Shown one piece after another: positions 34,179 to 43,238 of a DNA stretch of 64,000 bases. A program made the position numbers and the translations under genes. The stretch covers positions 1,612,001 to 1,676,000 of the forward strand of contig CP085323.1 of the NCBI GenBank assembly GCA_022870745.1, given 5' to 3'. Position 1 is the stretch's first letter, and each line of letters begins with the position of its first letter. The notes beneath the pieces are model-generated. The model was not told the origin of the DNA. It did not search any database and worked only from the letters and a program-made list of their open reading frames with translations. Source of the DNA: Silvibacterium acidisoli (lineage in GTDB: Bacteria; Acidobacteriota; Terriglobia; Terriglobales; Acidobacteriaceae).

Positions 34179-35015
34179 ATGCGTCCATTGCTGTTGATGG
34201 TGTTCTGGCTGGGACTGGGCGGAGGAAACATCCGGGCTGCCTCTGCGCCCGGCATTCCACCATCGGCCACGATCAGAAACCTCAATCAACTGCATGAGGT
34301 AAAGGCTTCGGGAGTCCTACTCGACTGGAATACGGGCCGGGTACTGGGGACTACGGGCGAAGAACGAGCATCTGCACCCGGCTCGATCCTGAAGCCTCTT
34401 CTGCTTTCTTACGCATTGCAGCAGCACATTGTCAGCGCCAGCACGCAGGTGTACTGCCGCCGTACGTTACATGTTGCCGGACGCGAGCTTGCCTGTTCTC
34501 ATCCTGACGACAGACCACTGCTGAACGCAGAGGACGCACTGGCGGAATCGTGCAATACATGGTTTGCGGAGCTTGCCCGGCGCATGAGCCCGCAGGATAT
34601 TCCGGCTGCGCTGCGCCGGTTCGGTCTGGCGCAATCCTCGTCCCATCTGAATGATCCTGAGCAGCGCATTCTTACCGTGCTCGGGCTTGAGAATATTTCG
34701 ACGACGCCGATGCAGCTAGCAGTGGCGTATCGTGCACTGCTTCTACATGAGGCACGCACGAGCGCCGTATGGACCGGCCTGCGGAACTCGGTGAACTGGG
34801 GGATGGCGCACGACGCACATCTCCCAAACATAGAGGTACTGGGTAAGACAGGCACCGCGAGCAACCCAGGGGAGTGGCGCACACACGGATGGTTCGCAGG
34901 CGGCGTGCCGGGCCGCTACGTTGTGGTGGTCTATGTGCCGCGCGGAGACGGCGGCACAGCCGCAACGCTTGCGGGGGCCGTACTGCGTAAAGAGATGCAA
35001 GAGGATGGCCGATGA
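34179..35015 (+). CDS. Penicillin-binding-protein-like transpeptidase domain, stand-alone
   Basis: A 278-residue exported protein (signal peptide about 1-21) consisting of little more than a penicillin-binding fold. All three active-site motifs are present: SxxK as S69-I-L-K72, SxN as S124-C-N126, and KTG at 223-225 (GKTGTAS). No transglycosylase or PBP dimerisation domain. It could be a D,D-transpeptidase/carboxypeptidase or a class-D-like serine enzyme. The stop overlaps the next gene by 4 nt, coupling it to the SpoIID/peptidase fusion. E. coli-type yfaQ (DUF2300) proteins also seem to combine similar elements, which I recall only loosely. Confidence 0.75.
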   Translation: MRPLLLMVFWLGLGGGNIRAASAPGIPPSATIRNLNQLHEVKASGVLLDWNTGRVLGTTGEERASAPGSILKPLLLSYALQQHIVSASTQVYCRRTLHVAGRELACSHPDDRPLLNAEDALAESCNTWFAELARRMSPQDIPAALRRFGLAQSSSHLNDPEQRILTVLGLENISTTPMQLAVAYRALLLHEARTSAVWTGLRNSVNWGMAHDAHLPNIEVLGKTGTASNPGEWRTHGWFAGGVPGRYVVVVYVPRGDGGTAATLAGAVLRKEMQEDGR

Positions 35016-36697
35016 GGTGGCGGGGCGCCCTGCTGCTCTGCACGGCGCTGGCGTGTTTTGCGCAGGAAGACGGAGGCGGGCGGGACGTAAGCGTTGCGCT
35101 GCTCTCTGCGCATCCCCCGCAAAGGATCATCATCTCAGCGGCCGGACCGGGAGCCTGGTGGTCATCCTGCGCTACCTGCCAGCGGCAGCCGCTTACTACT
35201 CCATTACAGATGCCTGGGAAGCGAGAACTCGTAGCAGGCGGCCCGATTACGATTCACGATGCAGAACACTCGCAGGAACGCACCGCGAACGGCAGGTGGC
35301 ATTTTCGCGCGGGGAGCGATGGCGCAGTGCAGATCACGCTCACACTGCCCAGCGAACGCTACGTCGCCGCGGTACTGATGGGTGAAACAGCGCCGGGTGA
35401 GCCCCGCGAATCGCTCCGTGCCATGGCGGTCGTTGCCAGGACATTCGCCCTGCATTCCACCTCCGCGCAAGGTCCTCCTGATGACATCTGTGACAGCACG
35501 GCATGCCAGGCGATCAGGCTTGGTCCGGTATCCGATGCAGTGAACGAAGCCGTACGCAGCACCGCTGGAGAAACTTTGTGGTTTGAGACACACCGTGCGC
35601 AGGTATTCTTCAGCGGCAGCTGCGGAGGCACGACGGAGAGCGCAGGCGCGGTCTGGCCAAAGCTCGCAAATGTGCCCTATCTCAGGTCGACACTGGATCC
35701 CTATTGTGTTCGCAAGGACCGGGCAGCATGGCATGCAGAGATTCCGCTGGCGACCCTGCAACAGATTGCGGCGCGCGAAGGATGGCGCGTGCCGGCGCAT
35801 ATTGCATCCTTACAGGTGACGCAAAGGACTTCCTCACAGCGTGCAAGAACACTCCTCCTTGTTGGACACGATGCACGAAGCGCTACTGTGTCTGCATCGT
35901 CGCTGCGGCTTGCCATAGGCCGTTCGCTCGGATGGAACCTGGTGCGAAGTGATGCTTACGACATCCGCGTCCGCGATGGGGTGCTCGTCTTTGACGGACA
36001 TGGGCATGGCCATGGTGTGGGCCTTTGCCAGCAGGGTGCTGCCGAGATGGCGCGAACGGGCAAGTCTTATCGGGAGATCCTCTCCTTCTACTTTCCCGGC
36101 ACAAACGTGCGTGTTCTCAGGCTGGATGATGGCTGGAAGGAGAAGTCGCAGGATGCCATCAGCTTCAGAAGCACTAGCGCTCTCCCGCAGTCTTCAACTA
36201 TGGAGGCCGTGAGAGCGTGGGCAATGGCAAAGAGCAGCTTTGCCCCACGCCAGGATGTGTCTCCCATGGTGATTTTCGCGCCCAGCACAGAGATCTTCCG
36301 GCAGATGACAGGGCAGCCGGGATGGCAACTGGCCAGCACTTCCGGCTCTACGATCATTCTGCAGCCATCGGAGGTGCTGGCTGCGAACCATGCATCGCTG
36401 GGGGCCACGTTGCGTCACGAGATGCTCCACGTTGCCGTGGAAGCGAGCGCGAACAGCAGATCTCCGCTATGGCTGCGCGAGGGCCTGGTGGAAGTGCTGG
36501 CGGGCGATGCTGCTCGTGGGGAGCCCTTGCTCTCCGCGGTGGAAACAGAGCGGCTGCTGCGAAGCTCGGACAGCCGCCAGGCAAGCGAGGCTGCACACCG
36601 CGCCGCGGCGGCACGCACCCGGCAGCTGGTTGAACATTATGGAATGTCCGTGGTGCGCGGATGGCTGGTATCCGGCTCTCCTGTGCCAGCGGACTGA
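35012..36697 (+). CDS. SpoIID-domain protein fused to a C-terminal HExxH zinc-peptidase-like domain
   Basis: A 561-residue exported protein. Residues about 105-375 match SpoIID/LytB: SERYVAAVLMGETAPGEP with catalytic-position E125, SLRAMAVVARTFAL, SGSCGGTTES, and GHGHGVGLCQQGAAEMA (331-347). SpoIID enzymes cut peptidoglycan glycan strands lacking stem peptides. Residues about 400-560 hold HEMLH (469-473), with E490 or E494 as third zinc ligand (PLWLREGLVE), like the gluzincin peptidase-MA type. The pairing of both activities on one chain is unusual. Translationally coupled to the transpeptidase-like gene; converges with, and overlaps by 61 bp, the membrane-protein gene of the alpha-2-macroglobulin operon. 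Confidence 0.8.
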   Translation: MRWRGALLLCTALACFAQEDGGGRDVSVALLSAHPPQRIIISAAGPGAWWSSCATCQRQPLTTPLQMPGKRELVAGGPITIHDAEHSQERTANGRWHFRAGSDGAVQITLTLPSERYVAAVLMGETAPGEPRESLRAMAVVARTFALHSTSAQGPPDDICDSTACQAIRLGPVSDAVNEAVRSTAGETLWFETHRAQVFFSGSCGGTTESAGAVWPKLANVPYLRSTLDPYCVRKDRAAWHAEIPLATLQQIAAREGWRVPAHIASLQVTQRTSSQRARTLLLVGHDARSATVSASSLRLAIGRSLGWNLVRSDAYDIRVRDGVLVFDGHGHGHGVGLCQQGAAEMARTGKSYREILSFYFPGTNVRVLRLDDGWKEKSQDAISFRSTSALPQSSTMEAVRAWAMAKSSFAPRQDVSPMVIFAPSTEIFRQMTGQPGWQLASTSGSTIILQPSEVLAANHASLGATLRHEMLHVAVEASANSRSPLWLREGLVEVLAGDAARGEPLLSAVETERLLRSSDSRQASEAAHRAAAARTRQLVEHYGMSVVRGWLVSGSPVPAD

Positions 36698-37410
36698 AGC
36701 CGGAGTATCGCGCGGGCCATCGACTGCATCAGCAATGCAACCGATACAGCGTTCAACAAGATCACAATCAGCAACCGCAGCAAAAGGCTGAATGTCTCCA
36801 CGGTAAGGCCGTGTCCCGGCGTCCACGATAAAACGCTGCCAGTGATGATTGCTTCAACGATTGCGAGCAGGAGCAACGAGAGCCAGTATCTTCCTGAACC
36901 GAGGATTGCCGGCAACCCTCGTTGCAATTTGCCGCAGGCGACAAGCGCAAAAGCAATCGCGCCAAGCAGGCCCGCCGAGATCCACTGCAGCGCGCTCCAC
37001 ATCCAGAAAAGCAGGATGTACAGATGCAAATAGGAGAAAAGATTTCGCAGCGAGGCTGGAAATCGCGAGTTGAGATATCCCGCCCAGAGACCATCCTTTG
37101 CATTCAGATTGTCAATGCCCAGCGAGATCAGATACCAGACGAGTGCCGCGATCAGCACAACGCCCGTACCTGACAGGAGGCGACGTGCCGACACCGGCCG
37201 CCCCACCATGCGCAGCGCAATGGCGCTCTCGCCCGCACCCGCCGCCAGGGCGATCAGCAATGCGAGCAGGATGCTGGCCAGCACCTCGAACGCATTGGCA
37301 TCGGGGACATGCAACCACCCGGCGACCAGAAGCAAGAGCACGGCTGCGAGCGCAATCTGCTGCAAGGCAACGGCTGCCACGCTGCCTGGAGAAAAACGCG
37401 ACACGGTCAT
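36637..37410 (-). CDS. Membrane protein of the alpha-2-macroglobulin operon
   Basis: A 257-residue protein with about six or seven hydrophobic segments (for example VALQQIALAAVLLLLVAGWL, LASILLALLIALAAGA, ILLFWMWSALQWISAGLLGA, LLLRLLIVILLNAVSVALLM) and a short charged tail. I recognise no family. The ATG overlaps the stop of the alpha-2-macroglobulin gene (ATGA), so it is the third gene of a coupled operon; it may anchor or energise the periplasmic proteins, which is inference. Its 3' end overlaps the convergent SpoIID fusion gene by 61 bp. Confidence 0.7.
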   Translation of the reverse strand: MTVSRFSPGSVAAVALQQIALAAVLLLLVAGWLHVPDANAFEVLASILLALLIALAAGAGESAIALRMVGRPVSARRLLSGTGVVLIAALVWYLISLGIDNLNAKDGLWAGYLNSRFPASLRNLFSYLHLYILLFWMWSALQWISAGLLGAIAFALVACGKLQRGLPAILGSGRYWLSLLLLAIVEAIITGSVLSWTPGHGLTVETFSLLLRLLIVILLNAVSVALLMQSMARAILRLQSAGTGEPDTSHPRTTDIP

Positions 37411-40400
37411 TGCGCACCTCCCGGAGCAGGAACGTCCAGATGCAGGGCGTCGCTGGAGGCCTGCACTCCCGATTGATACATCGGCTCCACGTGTGAAGGA
37501 CTGATGTTAAAGCTTCCTGGATTCACGATACGTATCAGGTAGAAGATCTCCTGCCGCCCGCTGAAGTCGCTTGCGAAGAACGTGGCGCGATCGTCGTGAA
37601 ACTCTCTGCGTGTAAACCAGTCGAACCAGCCGCCTGGACGATCTTCGACGGGATAACTATCTTCGTTCGTTACAAACTCGGCTCCGGCTGGAATCGGATC
37701 TTCGAGCATCAGGTAGCGCATGGGAGAGCCGTTGATCGCTTCGTGTACAGCAAGCACGTCGCCTACCTGCGCGCTGCCGGAGAGCGGCACCAGCTTGTAG
37801 ACAACTTTGCCGTCCTTCTGGGCGGGCTGCAATTTGTAATAGTCACGAGTGAGATTGAGCGACAGCTTGCCTGCCTGGTAATCCTTCTTCTCTGTCGAGA
37901 AATAGCGGCCGCGAGCAGACCAGTAGATGCGTCCCGAGCCGGAGCTGCGAACGACCTGCACGCTGTTGTCGCCCGGCGCAAGCTGTTCACTGCCCAGATC
38001 GATCTTGAAGGCAGCGCCGCTCAGGGCATCGTCTGCCGTGAAGCTGTGCTGCCCGACAGACTTTCCGTTCACCAGCACGTTCACGCTGAAGTTCGCTTCC
38101 AGTTCGTGCGATGCGGCGAGATAGTCCACGAGGCCGAAGAGCACCATGGCGGTCTGTTCAGTGGACTCCCACCATCCGCCATTGTTGCGCTCCAGCATCA
38201 GCCACTGCGCTGCCGGTGGAAGCAGGGCGTCGTTCGGATTGATCCTGGCCAGCAGGCGCACGGCATAGGCGGTTGCCTCGGCGTCGTTGGTGTACTCGGC
38301 GTCAAGCAGCGGAACATACGAACCGGTCCAGGAAACAAGCTCGCCGGTGCGAACCGCTTTACCGCGAAGCAGATCGGCAGCTTCGCTCGCGCGCGGGTCC
38401 TTCACCTCGAGCATTGCGAGGCCTGTCATGGCCAGCGCCTCCGGCTGGAGATCTGTGCGGCGCTCCCACTGCGTGTCGAGGGCTTCCTTCAGATTTCTGT
38501 CTCCGGCATTTGCGAGCGCGTAGATCACCGCCGCACGCAGCTCAGGGCGCATCTTGGGATGCTGCTTCAAAGCGTTGCGCAGATAATCCATACCGCGTGC
38601 GACCATCTGCTTCTGCTGAGGAGTGAAGGGGATATATTGCGCACCCTGCCCGAGGCCGCCTACTACGTAGGCTGTCATGTAGACGCGGCTGTCATCTTCT
38701 TTCCACCAGCCCCATCCGCCGTCGTCATGCTGATAGTCCTGCAGGCGTTCGAGGCCCGCGGCCAGCTTCGCATGCAAATCGTCCTGGTTGATATGCGTTC
38801 CCGGCGTGAGGCGCTGCAATGTTTCCGAAACGATTACGTTTGGCAGAAAACTGGACATCGTCTGCTCTGTGCATCCGTATGGATAGCCGGTAAGGTAATC
38901 CAGTGCCGTGAAGAGCGATCCGGCGATGGAGGGGCTGACCTCGACATGCAGCGAATGTGCCGCTGCGTCTGTCCCTGCCGGAAAACTCACTTTTGCATTC
39001 GCCTGCGAGGACGCCTGGCTGATCACACCGCTTGACGATAGCGTCTTCGCGACGCCCGCGGGCTCCACGGGAAAGCTGATCTCGAGTGCGTCCGATTCCG
39101 CATCGGTGATAGCCGCGCCGACCAGCTTTGCAGTCCCAACCTGAGAGGCACGCAGACGCCACAACACCGTGGCTTCTCCCTTGCTGGGAACGGTGACGCT
39201 TGCATCGGGGGCGTGCACCACATCGAGGCCGCTGACGTTGAGGGATACCTTCGCGGTCTTCTCTGTCTGGAGGTAGTTATGCACGATGACGGGAAGCGTG
39301 ATCTCGTCGCCCTTCACCATGAAGCGCGGCGTCCCCATGCGCACCAGTACGTCCTTGCGAACCAGCACCTTATTGCTGGCCGAGCCGGCTTTCGAGTCGT
39401 TGGTGATGGCGTGGACGGTGGTACGCCACGTGGTCAACGCATCGGGGAAGGTCAGCGTCACGCGCGCGTGGCCGGTGCTGTCCGTGTGCACGTCGGGCGC
39501 CCAGTAGGCCGTATCCGGAAACGCCTTGCGCACTTTGGGCGCGGCCTCGCTGCCCGGCTTTACTTGTGCGAGCTGTGGACGGTATCGGCGATTGCGTTCC
39601 GCCAGCAGTGGAGATTTCTGGCCTGCTTCTCCGCTGAAGTAATAGTCGAGCGACGACTCAATCTCCGCGCTGTTGTAACGCTGCGGGTGGAGGCTCTTGA
39701 TCATGTCTCCGCTGCTATCCGGATACAGGGAATAGATGGCCTCGTCGACCACGCCGAAGCTGACGTCGGCACTGACCGGCTTGCCGGTGAAGTCTTTCGT
39801 GAAGACGTCATAGGTCGCGCTCTGCTGCGGCTGGAAGATGTCTTTCGACGGAGTGACTTCTACCTGCAGCTTCTGCTGAACGGGCGGTACCTGGATGCGT
39901 TTCGATGCCTGGTAGAGCGTGCTGTTCTTGAGGAAAATCGCGGAGACTGTAATGTTCGGCTGCGCGTCTGCCGTAATGGGTAGATCGAACGAGAGCGTCT
40001 TGCCATCGGTATGCAGCACGTCACGCTTGAGCAGCGATGCGCCTTCCGTGATCACGAGCGCATGGAAGCCTTCGACATCCGACACGATACTGACGTGAGC
40101 TACATCGCCTGGCGAGTAGGACTTCTTGTCCGTGACAATCTGCGCCGTACCAACGTTGCCTTCCCACGACTGCTCGCCTGCACCCAGGATGTAGAGGTAG
40201 GTCGTGTCAATCGGATCGGGCGTACCGGTCTGCACCGAGCTTGCCGTGGCAATCAGCTCGGCGCTGTTGTACTTCGGCATGCCCACGGGAATCTCGCCGA
40301 TGGCGTGGCCGGAAGCGTCGGTAGTCACGTCTGTAGAGGCGCCGTCTTCTGTCACCGTCCTGCCGTTCTCCCAGTGATGGAAGCTGAGTTGAAGATGGAC

Positions 40401-42092
40401 GTGCGTGCTGACAGGCTTGTCGTCGTAATCGACGGCGGTCACGCGGACCTTCGCGGTTTCGTTGGGCCGGACGACATAGCTGACTGGCTCCACGTTGACG
40501 CGGAAGGTGCTGTAGGTGGCGAGAAAGCGACCACGGCCTGTAATCTCGCGATTCGCCGCATCAGTCACGCCGGCCTCGATCGTGTAGTCCAGATCGGAGT
40601 ACGACTTCCTTTCAACCTGCGTCGGCACCTGCACGGTTAAGAGGCCATTGCGATCGAGGACGCCGGTCTTTTCCGCCTCCTCATCGCCGTTGTATCCATT
40701 GCTGTCGTCGTCACTGCCAACGTCCGCGGAGTTGTCGTCGTCCTCCTCACCCCACCAGTAATGGCGCGAGCTGTAGACGCGGTACTTGACCTTGCCGCCT
40801 GCCACCGGCTCGCCGAAGAAGTAGCGCGAATCGATGGTGACGGGAACTGTCGCGCCTTCCAGAACCCTCTTCGACTGCGCTGTCACCTGCACGCGGTATT
40901 CCGGCTTGCGGTATTCCTCTACGTGAAAGCTGGCGGTTGCGAATGCGCCTTCTCCGCTGCCGACGGAGAGATTGTAGTAACCGAGCGAAGCGTCTTTGGG
41001 CAGATCGTAGTCGCCGGAGACATTGCCGTTCGTGACCGGCATGTCTTTCTCAAACACCGACTGGCCCTCGCCATTCTGGATACTTACATGTACCTTCGCT
41101 GCCTTCGGAATGGCCAGCGTGTTTCCAGTCTTCTCGCGAAGAATCGCCTTCCAATGCACCGTATGCGTCGGGCGATACACCGGCCGCTCGGTGAAGGCGT
41201 AACCAACCATGCTTCGATTGGCCAGATAGCTCAGCATCCAGCCGCCCGGCGTGGATACGGCAACATCTTTACCCTTTGCCGAGACGATCCAGAGATTATC
41301 GTCAGCGCCTTTTTTATCCTGCACCGGCAGGTCGGCAACACCATTCGCGTCCGTGGTTGCCGAGGCAAACTGCTTCTGGCTGTAACCTGCGTCCACCTTC
41401 ACGCCTTCGATCGGAGTGCCGGTAGCGCGATCAACAACGTAAGCAGTGATGCTGCTGGAGGTGGTGCGCGTCACGAGTGCCATATTCGTGATCATCAGCA
41501 GCGTATAGGCCTTGTAGCGCCCGTCAGTAGCTTCGAGCAGGTAGAGGCCCGCATCCAGCTTTGGAACCGGGAGCTCGTTCGCATCGGAAATATAGGTAGA
41601 CGGCACCTGCTGACGCCAACGCGCCACCAGTTGCGATGGGTTCAAAATGGGAATCTGCGCGAACTCCGCTTCAGAAAGGATGCGGCTCTTGCGGCTCAAC
41701 TTTGCCTGCTTGCGCCGCAGGGAACGGCGCGCCTCATGGGAGAACTGATGACGAAAGAACGAGCGGATGCGGTTCCACAGGTCGGTCTTCCAGTCATGAA
41801 AACGCTCCAGCCATGACTTCTCATCCACATGCTCCGGGCCGAGCAGGCTGGCTTCCGGACCGAAGGAGTGCAGCTCGCGCAGGTTCTCGATGAACTTCAC
41901 TGGATCGTTCACGCGATAGACGCGGAACTCCAGCGCGTCCACGTTGTGCGTGTAGAGGTGGATCGTCGGCTTATCGCCGGGCGCGAAGGTTTTGCTTGTG
42001 CTCAGGTTGAATGACACAGCATCGTCCTGGGCATGCAGCGGGGCGAATGCAAGAAGGAACAGGACGAGCAGCGAAAAAACGCGGGGCCTCAT
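37407..42092 (-). CDS. Bacterial alpha-2-macroglobulin with thioester (YfaS/MagD-like)
   Basis: A 1561-residue exported protein (signal peptide ending APLHA-Q). The macroglobulin domains start near residue 25. There are an MG-type domain with bait-region candidates (about 760-880), the A2M signature KAFPDTAYWAPDVHTDSTG, the thioester motif GCTEQ with Cys1074, and the alpha/alpha toroid that follows (DGGWGWWKEDDSR, NGGWWESTEQTAMVLFGL). Cys and Gln of CTEQ form the internal thioester that traps attacking proteases covalently. No lipobox is seen, unlike E. coli ECAM, so it may be periplasmic and soluble. Coupled by ATGA overlaps to DUF1175 upstream and the membrane protein downstream. Confidence 0.92.
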   Translation of the reverse strand: MRPRVFSLLVLFLLAFAPLHAQDDAVSFNLSTSKTFAPGDKPTIHLYTHNVDALEFRVYRVNDPVKFIENLRELHSFGPEASLLGPEHVDEKSWLERFHDWKTDLWNRIRSFFRHQFSHEARRSLRRKQAKLSRKSRILSEAEFAQIPILNPSQLVARWRQQVPSTYISDANELPVPKLDAGLYLLEATDGRYKAYTLLMITNMALVTRTTSSSITAYVVDRATGTPIEGVKVDAGYSQKQFASATTDANGVADLPVQDKKGADDNLWIVSAKGKDVAVSTPGGWMLSYLANRSMVGYAFTERPVYRPTHTVHWKAILREKTGNTLAIPKAAKVHVSIQNGEGQSVFEKDMPVTNGNVSGDYDLPKDASLGYYNLSVGSGEGAFATASFHVEEYRKPEYRVQVTAQSKRVLEGATVPVTIDSRYFFGEPVAGGKVKYRVYSSRHYWWGEEDDDNSADVGSDDDSNGYNGDEEAEKTGVLDRNGLLTVQVPTQVERKSYSDLDYTIEAGVTDAANREITGRGRFLATYSTFRVNVEPVSYVVRPNETAKVRVTAVDYDDKPVSTHVHLQLSFHHWENGRTVTEDGASTDVTTDASGHAIGEIPVGMPKYNSAELIATASSVQTGTPDPIDTTYLYILGAGEQSWEGNVGTAQIVTDKKSYSPGDVAHVSIVSDVEGFHALVITEGASLLKRDVLHTDGKTLSFDLPITADAQPNITVSAIFLKNSTLYQASKRIQVPPVQQKLQVEVTPSKDIFQPQQSATYDVFTKDFTGKPVSADVSFGVVDEAIYSLYPDSSGDMIKSLHPQRYNSAEIESSLDYYFSGEAGQKSPLLAERNRRYRPQLAQVKPGSEAAPKVRKAFPDTAYWAPDVHTDSTGHARVTLTFPDALTTWRTTVHAITNDSKAGSASNKVLVRKDVLVRMGTPRFMVKGDEITLPVIVHNYLQTEKTAKVSLNVSGLDVVHAPDASVTVPSKGEATVLWRLRASQVGTAKLVGAAITDAESDALEISFPVEPAGVAKTLSSSGVISQASSQANAKVSFPAGTDAAAHSLHVEVSPSIAGSLFTALDYLTGYPYGCTEQTMSSFLPNVIVSETLQRLTPGTHINQDDLHAKLAAGLERLQDYQHDDGGWGWWKEDDSRVYMTAYVVGGLGQGAQYIPFTPQQKQMVARGMDYLRNALKQHPKMRPELRAAVIYALANAGDRNLKEALDTQWERRTDLQPEALAMTGLAMLEVKDPRASEAADLLRGKAVRTGELVSWTGSYVPLLDAEYTNDAEATAYAVRLLARINPNDALLPPAAQWLMLERNNGGWWESTEQTAMVLFGLVDYLAASHELEANFSVNVLVNGKSVGQHSFTADDALSGAAFKIDLGSEQLAPGDNSVQVVRSSGSGRIYWSARGRYFSTEKKDYQAGKLSLNLTRDYYKLQPAQKDGKVVYKLVPLSGSAQVGDVLAVHEAINGSPMRYLMLEDPIPAGAEFVTNEDSYPVEDRPGGWFDWFTRREFHDDRATFFASDFSGRQEIFYLIRIVNPGSFNISPSHVEPMYQSGVQASSDALHLDVPAPGGAQ

Positions 42093-43087
42093 TCAGAATC
42101 CTCACGAAGGATGTTCCAGCGATAGACGCCCAGGAAGTTGCTGTTTTCCGGGTTTGGCCGCCAGCGGGGATCGGGGTGCTGCAAGAGATCCTGCAGCAGA
42201 ACACGGCGCACTTCGCCTGGCTTCTCGCCAATCGGCCCAGTGTGATAGATGACCCACTTCTGCGCTGCTCCGGTAACGATCATGGAGTGGTAGGGAGAGT
42301 TTTGCTCGAGTTGACGAAAGAATAATAAATCCCCGGGGCGTGCCCGCTGCACATCGCGGCTTAGAAAAAACGTATTCCATCGCCAGAGGGTGCGCGCATC
42401 CGCAAATTGCGCAAAAGCACCATTACTCTCGTCACCTTGGGCGAAGGAGCCATCACGCGTTCTAAAGAGTCCGGCTCCCAGCGGAGTCTGCGGATAGACA
42501 TATTGCCCAATGGAAGGCTGACTCAGATCCAGCCCTGCAGGTGCACTTGCGAGCCAGCTCTCGTCATGTGCGTGGAGAGCGTTGCGGTAACACCAGCGGA
42601 GGAGCGCGGCGCAGTCGTCGATCTCGCCGGGAAGCTTATCGGGCGGCAGATCGGCGGCAGCCTCGGCCATCGCGGTAAACCATCCCCGGAAGGCATTACG
42701 GTCCTCAGCCGTATGCAGCCTGAGAAAGTCCGGGGTTCCATCGCCCGCGCTGTCGCCTGAAGCTGGGGCGAAGTGCAGCCGTAGCGTTGCTTCGGATTTT
42801 CCGTCAGAGATCTTGAGGGTCTTATCACCGGGAAGCACCGGCGACTGCACCATGAGCGAGACTGAGTCTTTCCCCTTGTCCAGCAGGTGCGCCGGAAGAC
42901 CGCTGACGGAAATCGCAGCCGAAGCATGCAGCGCCGTGCCTGCAAAATGAAAACGGCCGTCAGCTGGCATCTGGAGTTGCCGGGTCTCGACGCGCAGGCG
43001 TGGCTTCTGCACGGTCTTAAAAACGGCAAAGAGTGCCGCGACGCACAGCAGCGCGATAGAGATGCCCGCAATGCCCCTTGGATTCAA
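42089..43087 (-). CDS. DUF1175 protein with NlpC/P60-like features
   Basis: A 332-residue protein with an N-terminal anchor (GIAGISIALLCVAALFAVF), a beta-rich region (to about 110) and the DUF1175 domain known from E. coli YfaT. Within it DDCAALLRWCYRNAL (Cys159), RARPGDLLFFRQ (about 248-259) and SPYHSMIVTG (His267) line up with the Cys, PGDLvfF and His motifs of NlpC/P60 cysteine peptidases, which cut peptidoglycan stem peptides. The NlpC reading is mine and is inference. First gene of the alpha-2-macroglobulin operon; a tRNA gene lies just upstream. Confidence 0.8.
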   Translation of the reverse strand: MNPRGIAGISIALLCVAALFAVFKTVQKPRLRVETRQLQMPADGRFHFAGTALHASAAISVSGLPAHLLDKGKDSVSLMVQSPVLPGDKTLKISDGKSEATLRLHFAPASGDSAGDGTPDFLRLHTAEDRNAFRGWFTAMAEAAADLPPDKLPGEIDDCAALLRWCYRNALHAHDESWLASAPAGLDLSQPSIGQYVYPQTPLGAGLFRTRDGSFAQGDESNGAFAQFADARTLWRWNTFFLSRDVQRARPGDLLFFRQLEQNSPYHSMIVTGAAQKWVIYHTGPIGEKPGEVRRVLLQDLLQHPDPRWRPNPENSNFLGVYRWNILREDSE

Positions 43088-43161: not shown

Positions 43162-43238
43162 TGGTCGGGGAGAGAGGATTCGAACCTCCGACCCCCTCGT
43201 CCCGAACGAGGTGCTCTACCAGGCTGAGCCACTCCCCG
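43162..43238 (-). tRNA. tRNA-Pro (anticodon CGG)
   Basis: On the minus strand the gene begins cggggag and ends ctccccg-a-cca. D-arm gctcagcctggtagagc, anticodon stem cctcg/cgagg with loop ttCGGga, variable region, and T-arm with ggTTCGAATcc are all present. The acceptor stem is 7 bp and CCA is encoded. It lies 74 bp upstream of the DUF1175 start. The 77-nt length is normal. Confidence 0.95.

Follow-up and report, generated by a model that had tools for sequence, protein, structure and literature searches.

The window analysed here is a 64,000-nucleotide stretch of the Silvibacterium acidisoli contig CP085323.1 (assembly GCA_022870745.1, forward strand, positions 1,612,001 to 1,676,000). Between positions 34179 and 43087 it carries five genes in two arms, which converge tail to tail and include a bacterial alpha-2-macroglobulin (A2M), a protease trap similar to the human protein of that name. 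A preliminary description, made from the sequence alone, had placed this cluster in the envelope and likened it to the yfa/mag loci of Proteobacteria. All five open reading frames (ORFs) were found at the coordinates listed below, and the five gene identifications were confirmed by the ORFs, by Pfam and by the HEMLH and CTEQ motifs. The envelope setting was likewise right. Counts out of 53 to 57 rows in the list are from a census of active sites covering the family, the phylum, the named loci and the window, in which only rows covering a site were counted and 1 to 8 gapped rows per site were set aside.

34179..35015, plus strand: penicillin-binding protein (PBP) transpeptidase domain protein, secreted-type, 278 amino acids (PF00905, 3.2e-19)
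34383..34394, plus strand: SxxK (SILK) active-site motif of the PBP domain (54/54 rows having the site)
34548..34556, plus strand: SxN (SCN) motif of the PBP domain (54/54 rows)
34845..34853, plus strand: KTG motif of the PBP domain (53/53 rows)
35012..36697, plus strand: SpoIID-type lytic transglycosylase domain with C-terminal HExxH zinc-peptidase domain, 561 amino acids (PF08486, 2.8e-14)
35384..35386, plus strand: putative catalytic Glu125 of the SpoIID domain (E in 55/55 rows having the site)
36416..36430, plus strand: HEMLH zinc motif of the second gene (HExxH in 56/57 rows)
36637..36697, no strand: tail-to-tail overlap between the arms, 61 bases (overlapping ends also in 18/27 convergent relatives)
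36637..37410, minus strand: six-helix membrane protein, candidate anchor (six hydrophobic segments)
37407..42092, minus strand: bacterial A2M, 1561 amino acids, with signal-type N-terminus, bait-region domain and thioester domain (Pfam)
38862..38873, minus strand: CTEQ thioester motif of the A2M (CxEQ in 57/57 covering rows)
42089..43087, minus strand: DUF1175 (YfaT family) protein, NlpC/P60-like, TTG start (PF06672, 2.2e-69)
42611..42616, minus strand: Asp158-Cys159, with the putative catalytic Cys of DUF1175 (invariant in 25/25 rows including E. coli YfaT)

The genes are coupled within each arm, as had been described, all three within-arm junctions being four-base ATGA stop/start overlaps. 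Pfam gave a family match for four of the five proteins and none for the membrane protein; the TED, A2M, MG2 and bait domains of the A2M, the only one found in the source genome, were matched with E values from 1e-23 to 1e-16, and its relatives in the PDB include CD109 (1.4e-32) and YfhM (2e-26). Similarly, the PBP family alignment matched FtsI/PBP2 at 2.5e-24 and that of the SpoIID-peptidase matched 4rwr at 1.8e-37. The SpoIID/LytB domain lies above the curated cut-offs of TIGR02669 (154 bits, cut-off 83) and PF08486 (54 bits, cut-off 23). A structural model of the SpoIID-peptidase (predicted local distance difference test, pLDDT, 82.5) resembles SpoIID structures (5i1t, template modelling score 0.71 by target); its likeness to gluzincin metallopeptidases, among them collagenase T (E 6e-4) and M1 enzymes, is weaker. 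In its peptidase domain HEMLH is followed by REG, and the third zinc ligand was assigned by motif to the downstream Glu490. The NLPC_P60 match of DUF1175 is weak and below cut-off (0.04 for the window protein, 4e-4 for YfaT).

The stand-alone transpeptidase and the peptidase fusion had been regarded as differences from yfa/mag. By profile comparison over three domains, however, these two genes together are YfaQ (DUF2300), split in two, so that the main claimed difference from yfa/mag largely vanishes. E. coli YfaQ, annotated as a tandem DUF2300 protein, also has a SpoIID match (7e-6), and an alignment with the E. coli and Citrobacter YfaQ extends across all three domains. A profile comparison of the whole set gave E values of 1.7e-13 across PBP and SpoIID and of 4.7e-5 for the peptidase. 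Taken separately and set against YfaQ of E. coli, Citrobacter and L217, the PBP profile matched the N-terminus of this YfaQ set (E 8e-5, hhalign probability 61%), the SpoIID profile its middle (2e-12, 98%) and the peptidase profile its C-terminus (9e-5, 60%). The domains match in corresponding places only: the six off-diagonal pairs gave E values of 0.15 or worse, the 18 reversed or shuffled controls 0.057 or worse, and the controls of the PBP comparison values above 0.2. In addition, the Pfam DUF2300 model matches the peptidase part of the homologue L040, which is 34% identical to the window protein, at 2e-25, and that of L041 at 4e-5, slightly below the cut-off. Several figures speak against this assignment. 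The hhalign probability is only about 60% for the PBP and peptidase parts and falls to 5.5% when the PBP alignment is set against YfaQ alone; the DUF2300 model gives no match in the window protein; and it reaches E<=0.01 in five of 21 aligned relatives, among which only L040 was seen passing the cut-off. A Pfam DUF2300 search of Acidobacteriota genomes gave 0/12 at the cut-off.

A single ORF encodes all three parts in three Acidobacteriota assemblies (L066, L067, L068) as well as in further families of that phylum, and another arrangement has PBP and SpoIID together with a separate peptidase (L074, L120). Custom profiles revealed a permuted order, PBP-peptidase-SpoIID, in family f24 (L172, L173, L175), where no membrane gene was detected adjacent; in L172 Pfam saw no SpoIID, unlike the custom profiles. 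The transpeptidase-like nature of the YfaQ N-terminus and the SpoIID-like nature of its C-terminus are already published (PMC12282094); the main text of that paper has no occurrence of yfaS, macroglobulin or any word starting with peptidase. In the literature searched, outside which most subscription papers lie, DUF2300 was not mentioned, DUF1175 appeared in two papers, macroglobulin, Acidobacteria and thioester were not found together, and SpoIID and macroglobulin met only in a cyanobacterial proteome paper.

Conservation was followed in a family sample of 150 genomes. DUF1175 was found in 29 of them, and the surroundings of all 28 DUF1175 genes other than that of the window were examined. 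DUF1175 adjoins an A2M in 28/28 loci, the membrane gene follows the A2M in all 25 loci that no contig end interrupts (the interrupted ones being L037, L039 and L043), and in 21 of the 25 complete loci the DUF1175-A2M-membrane arm faces the converging PBP and SpoIID-peptidase genes. In the remaining four the pair is on another contig, each time with the PBP gene upstream of the SpoIID-peptidase gene. The preliminary description had proposed one functional unit and had named the lack of a conserved neighbourhood in relatives as evidence to the contrary; these counts show such a neighbourhood to be present. An alignment-based search found a full-length SpoIID-peptidase in 31 of the 150 genomes (in G132 in two pieces), including all 29 with DUF1175. 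In the two others (G142 and G122, 77% and 79% complete) the membrane gene is present, as is an A2M running off the contig. The overlap has a hypergeometric p of 6e-29, with both samples taken as the same 150 genomes and shared ancestry uncorrected, and within genera g1, g2, g9, g18, g28, g33 and g51 the presence and absence of the two genes vary together. Four genes flanking the cluster in the window (mannosyltransferase-like, GH3, S-methyltransferase and PurL) were found in none of the 28 relatives' stretches (tblastn, 1e-4); the conserved block is therefore the five cluster genes.

Across the phylum, DUF1175 matched in 55 of 396 genomes, nine of which belong to the window's own family, and 20 of the 46 outside loci were examined. 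DUF1175 adjoins an A2M in all 20, and 17 of these stretches, several of them edge-cut, also hold at least one of the PBP, SpoIID and peptidase parts. No DUF1175 was found in the 16 genomes behind the SpoIID loci, the L120 genome included, nor in 194 genomes from the phylum to which the Verrucomicrobiia locus belongs. In that of Pelotalea chapellei, which we take to be Desulfobacterota, five of 198 genomes have it. Among the four loci examined there, one is a canonical operon (L217), one has DUF1175 without any other part (L216), and in two (L214, L215) the order is DUF1175-A2M(CNEQ)-PBP-peptidase, SpoIID not being found. With the tree rooted at its midpoint, the A2M of these two falls inside the Acidobacteriota rows, which suggests transfer. 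Two observations run counter to a tightly bound set: on the L066 and L067 contigs (10.7 and 6.2 kb) the fused gene is accompanied by neither A2M nor DUF1175, and the L120 genome, an Acidobacteria assembly, has A2M, PBP-SpoIID and peptidase, whereas the search for DUF1175 gave none. Nevertheless, it is nearly certain that the five genes form one yfa/mag-type system.

The resemblance to yfa/mag is borne out by the adjacency of DUF1175 and A2M and by the homology to YfaQ. The E. coli yfaA-yfaT-yfaS-yfaQ-yfaP genes and their relatives on a Citrobacter plasmid hold DUF1175, A2M and a PBP-SpoIID-peptidase protein (YfaQ) in one neighbourhood, as the window does; E. coli YfaT shares the conserved Cys-His of DUF1175, and YfaQ keeps HExxH (HEYLH). 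However, the E. coli and Citrobacter genes lie on a single strand with a fused YfaQ, include DUF2138 and DUF2135, and have no six-helix protein detected beside them. No CxEQ was found in their A2M, in contrast to CTEQ in the window. In YfaQ of E. coli, Citrobacter and L217 the SxN position reads SCG and the KTG position KTW or KTF (KTW in E. coli and Citrobacter). In E. coli and on the Citrobacter plasmid, the two gammaproteobacterial sources sampled, about 150 SpoIID residues, including CGG and GHGVGLCQ, are missing as well. Conversely, DUF2138 (YfaA) and DUF2135 (YfaP) were each found in 0/29 DUF1175-positive family genomes, the source genome included. Thus the composition does differ from yfa/mag, as had been proposed, but through features that had not been named as differences: the absence of these two families, the presence of the six-helix membrane protein and the retained thioester, PBP and SpoIID residues. 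Like the window, the L217 locus combines DUF1175 and a DUF2300 protein with a thioester A2M (CVEQ). Unlike the window, it has DUF2138, DUF2135 in two genes and PBP motifs that are degenerate as in YfaQ; with the order DUF2138-DUF1175-A2M-DUF2300-DUF2135 it is a canonical operon which keeps the thioester.

The Citrobacter genes (L144 5028-14363: DUF2138, DUF1175, A2M, DUF2300 and DUF2135 in a row) are on the Citrobacter portucalensis plasmid NZ_CP134684.1, typed as mobilizable. In E. coli MG1655, yfaS is annotated as a pseudogene (L031 7799-12403), and a stop splits it into two same-frame ORFs.

Bacterial A2Ms have been divided into type I, which has a thioester and is paired with PBP1C, and type II, which lacks the thioester and belongs to a six-gene operon; the two are described as quite distinct (PMC5764988). 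DUF1175 beside the A2M, a type II (yfa/mag) feature, was found in the window, in 28/28 family loci and in 20/20 loci of other families; the lack of a CXEQ thioester, another type II feature, was not, the window A2M reading CTEQ. The type II magABCDEF genes of Pseudomonas aeruginosa are likewise a six-gene A2M operon, in which we take MagE to be the DUF1175 and MagC the DUF2300 member. In contrast to the window A2M, MagD has no CXEQ, and MagB anchors the complex (PMC5764988). The thioester A2M next to a PBP transpeptidase is a likeness to the type I yfhM-pbpC pair, for which we know of no DUF1175, SpoIID or peptidase partner. PBP1C is, however, a bifunctional synthase (PMC4498604, PMC5764988), whereas the 278-amino-acid window protein has the transpeptidase domain only, and PBP1C models scored far under their cut-offs on it. 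By these sequence features the published division does not hold here, and the loci combine both types. A PBP domain is thereby tied to the type II gene set as well, DUF2300 gains a domain identity, and both published settings of bacterial A2Ms (PBP1C, YfaQ) pair the macroglobulin with a wall-crosslinking fold. Such a pairing could explain why MagD, which looks like a protease trap, gives protection from toxins aimed at the cell wall.

The census found the thioester, the three PBP motifs and the SpoIID glutamate, to which a catalytic role is ascribed in SpoIID enzymes, in every row counted. HExxH is lacking in a single row (L072), whose stretch shows no other part of the system. Other SpoIID positions vary, CGG being present in 51/55 rows and the GHGVGLCQ stretch being altered in f24. 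The catalytic residues of all enzymatic parts and the thioester are thus intact, and the Acidobacteriota version looks fully armed. It would therefore be a place to test a coupling of protease trapping and wall repair. Against this stands the description of DUF1175 as inactive and peptidoglycan-binding (PMC10318531). The Asp-Cys pair and His267 were, however, each found in 56/56 rows; the invariant Cys and His leave the published label open to doubt, and DUF1175 may be an active enzyme.

Convergence of the arms, taken at first as a further difference from yfa/mag, holds for some lineages only: of the 17 linked loci of other families six are convergent and 11 have all parts on the A2M strand. 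The full order DUF1175, A2M, membrane gene and fused protein occurs on one strand in L169, L170, L171, L184, L187 and the named locus L068. A tree of 57 A2M rows was computed by a quick method with the Shimodaira-Hasegawa-like approximate likelihood ratio test as its only support; 11 partial, broken or re-fetched loci were omitted and several long branches were flagged. In it the convergent loci fall within one set of 39 rows (eight unlinked or cut; support 99), the split loci within a set of 31 rows nested in the convergent set (four unlinked; support 100), and the window A2M groups with the named Acidobacteriaceae loci L060 and L065. Because most linked loci outside the family have the same-strand arrangement, the convergent state is probably derived, by an inversion. 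The simplest reading would be one inversion followed by one gene fission on the branch of the window, the splits in f24 and in L074 and L120 being separate; with the root at the midpoint, the direction of change is inferred.

The explanation which we favour overall, with moderate confidence, is a periplasmic system homologous to yfa/mag, with intact catalytic residues, in which protease trapping would be coupled to wall repair. DUF1175 (NlpC/P60-like) and the six-helix membrane protein would help to place the A2M at the inner membrane; the Pseudomonas relative of DUF1175 is presumably MagE, which is needed for normal amounts of A2M. An intruding protease would then cleave the bait region and be captured covalently by the CTEQ thioester that this exposes, as expected from A2M biochemistry, while the three wall enzymes (PBP transpeptidase, SpoIID lytic transglycosylase, zinc peptidase) would trim and re-crosslink damaged peptidoglycan. 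Capture and repair would act together in one periplasmic system. Defence or repair of the envelope against attack as the actual job is given slightly better than even chances, by analogy with studied relatives. Thioester A2Ms capture proteases covalently, and MagD, without a thioester, still traps one; MagD is periplasmic and inner-membrane associated, and losing MagE or MagB lowers its amount (PMC5764988). By analogy with MagB, the six-helix protein may stand in for this anchor. The defence role proposed in the preliminary description is supported for the relative MagD, as magD protects against the cell-wall-targeting type VI secretion effector VgrG3 and to a limited degree against Tae1 (PMC12663445). 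A link to the wall is likewise supported by the deletion of yfaQ, which makes cells wider and connects with deletions of mepS, mepK and nlpI among others (PMC12282094). On the other side, the MagD study (PMC12663445) reports no protection by MagD against TseH and found it dispensable against B. thailandensis.

Two other explanations are each improbable. The system could be an export gate, in which wall enzymes open and reseal the sacculus so that the very large A2M can reach the outer membrane or the surface, or be assembled close to them; secretion machines have dedicated lytic transglycosylases for such a task. A lytic transglycosylase, an NlpC/P60-like protein and a crosslinker fold are indeed encoded beside one very large secreted protein, and the wall-enzyme genes and the A2M co-occur even when unlinked, but the relative MagD is reported to be periplasmic and associated with the inner membrane (PMC5764988). 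Alternatively, the system could shape the sacculus in normal growth, the A2M guarding its enzymes from proteolysis. The neighbouring enzymes belong to wall-acting families, and the widening of E. coli cells on deletion of yfaQ is seen across nutrient conditions (PMC12282094). Such a housekeeping role, however, fits poorly with a patchy distribution (29/150 family genomes, with presence and absence within several genera) and with flanking genes shared by 0/28 relatives' stretches; because of both, the system behaves like an accessory one.

More doubtful still is a complement-like response, in which, after the bait is cut, the thioester would bond the A2M to the protease and also to amines or hydroxyls of damaged peptidoglycan, in the way C3b coats a surface, and would thereby direct the transpeptidase, the lytic transglycosylase and the peptidases to the breach; the enterobacterial yfa genes would then be a decayed descendant, which lost thioester and wall catalysis together. 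Finally, that two unrelated arms merely lie tail to tail is hardly credible: the convergent orientation, the pair located elsewhere in 4/25 family loci and the fused gene without A2M on the L066 and L067 contigs would fit it, but it was rejected on the co-occurrence in 29/29 genomes and the same-strand relatives, both the 11/17 linked loci and E. coli yfaT-yfaS-yfaQ.

The membrane protein has no Pfam, NCBIfam or PDB sequence match. Pfam searches on 26 family members gave only scattered weak matches, and the model (pLDDT 73) is helical, with no fold-search match under E 0.6. The protein diverges fast, with one invariant column of 330 among 26 sequences, yet keeps a constant place after the A2M.

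None of the five cluster proteins matched the PADLOC anti-phage models. A tRNA-Pro(CGG) gene lies at window positions 43162-43238, immediately upstream of DUF1175. A tRNA-borne island was considered and rejected, since no tRNA was found in 25 scanned relatives' stretches. When compared with same-genus genomes lacking the system, no place with both flanking genes together was found, hence no readable empty site. In genomes of the family, a separate set of proteins of about 440-600 amino acids carries a relative of the peptidase domain (e.g. G027:C18:194062-194565), also in genomes without the system. Among relatives, the overlap of the arm tails is often near 61 bases, and antisense coupling of the two arms is possible.

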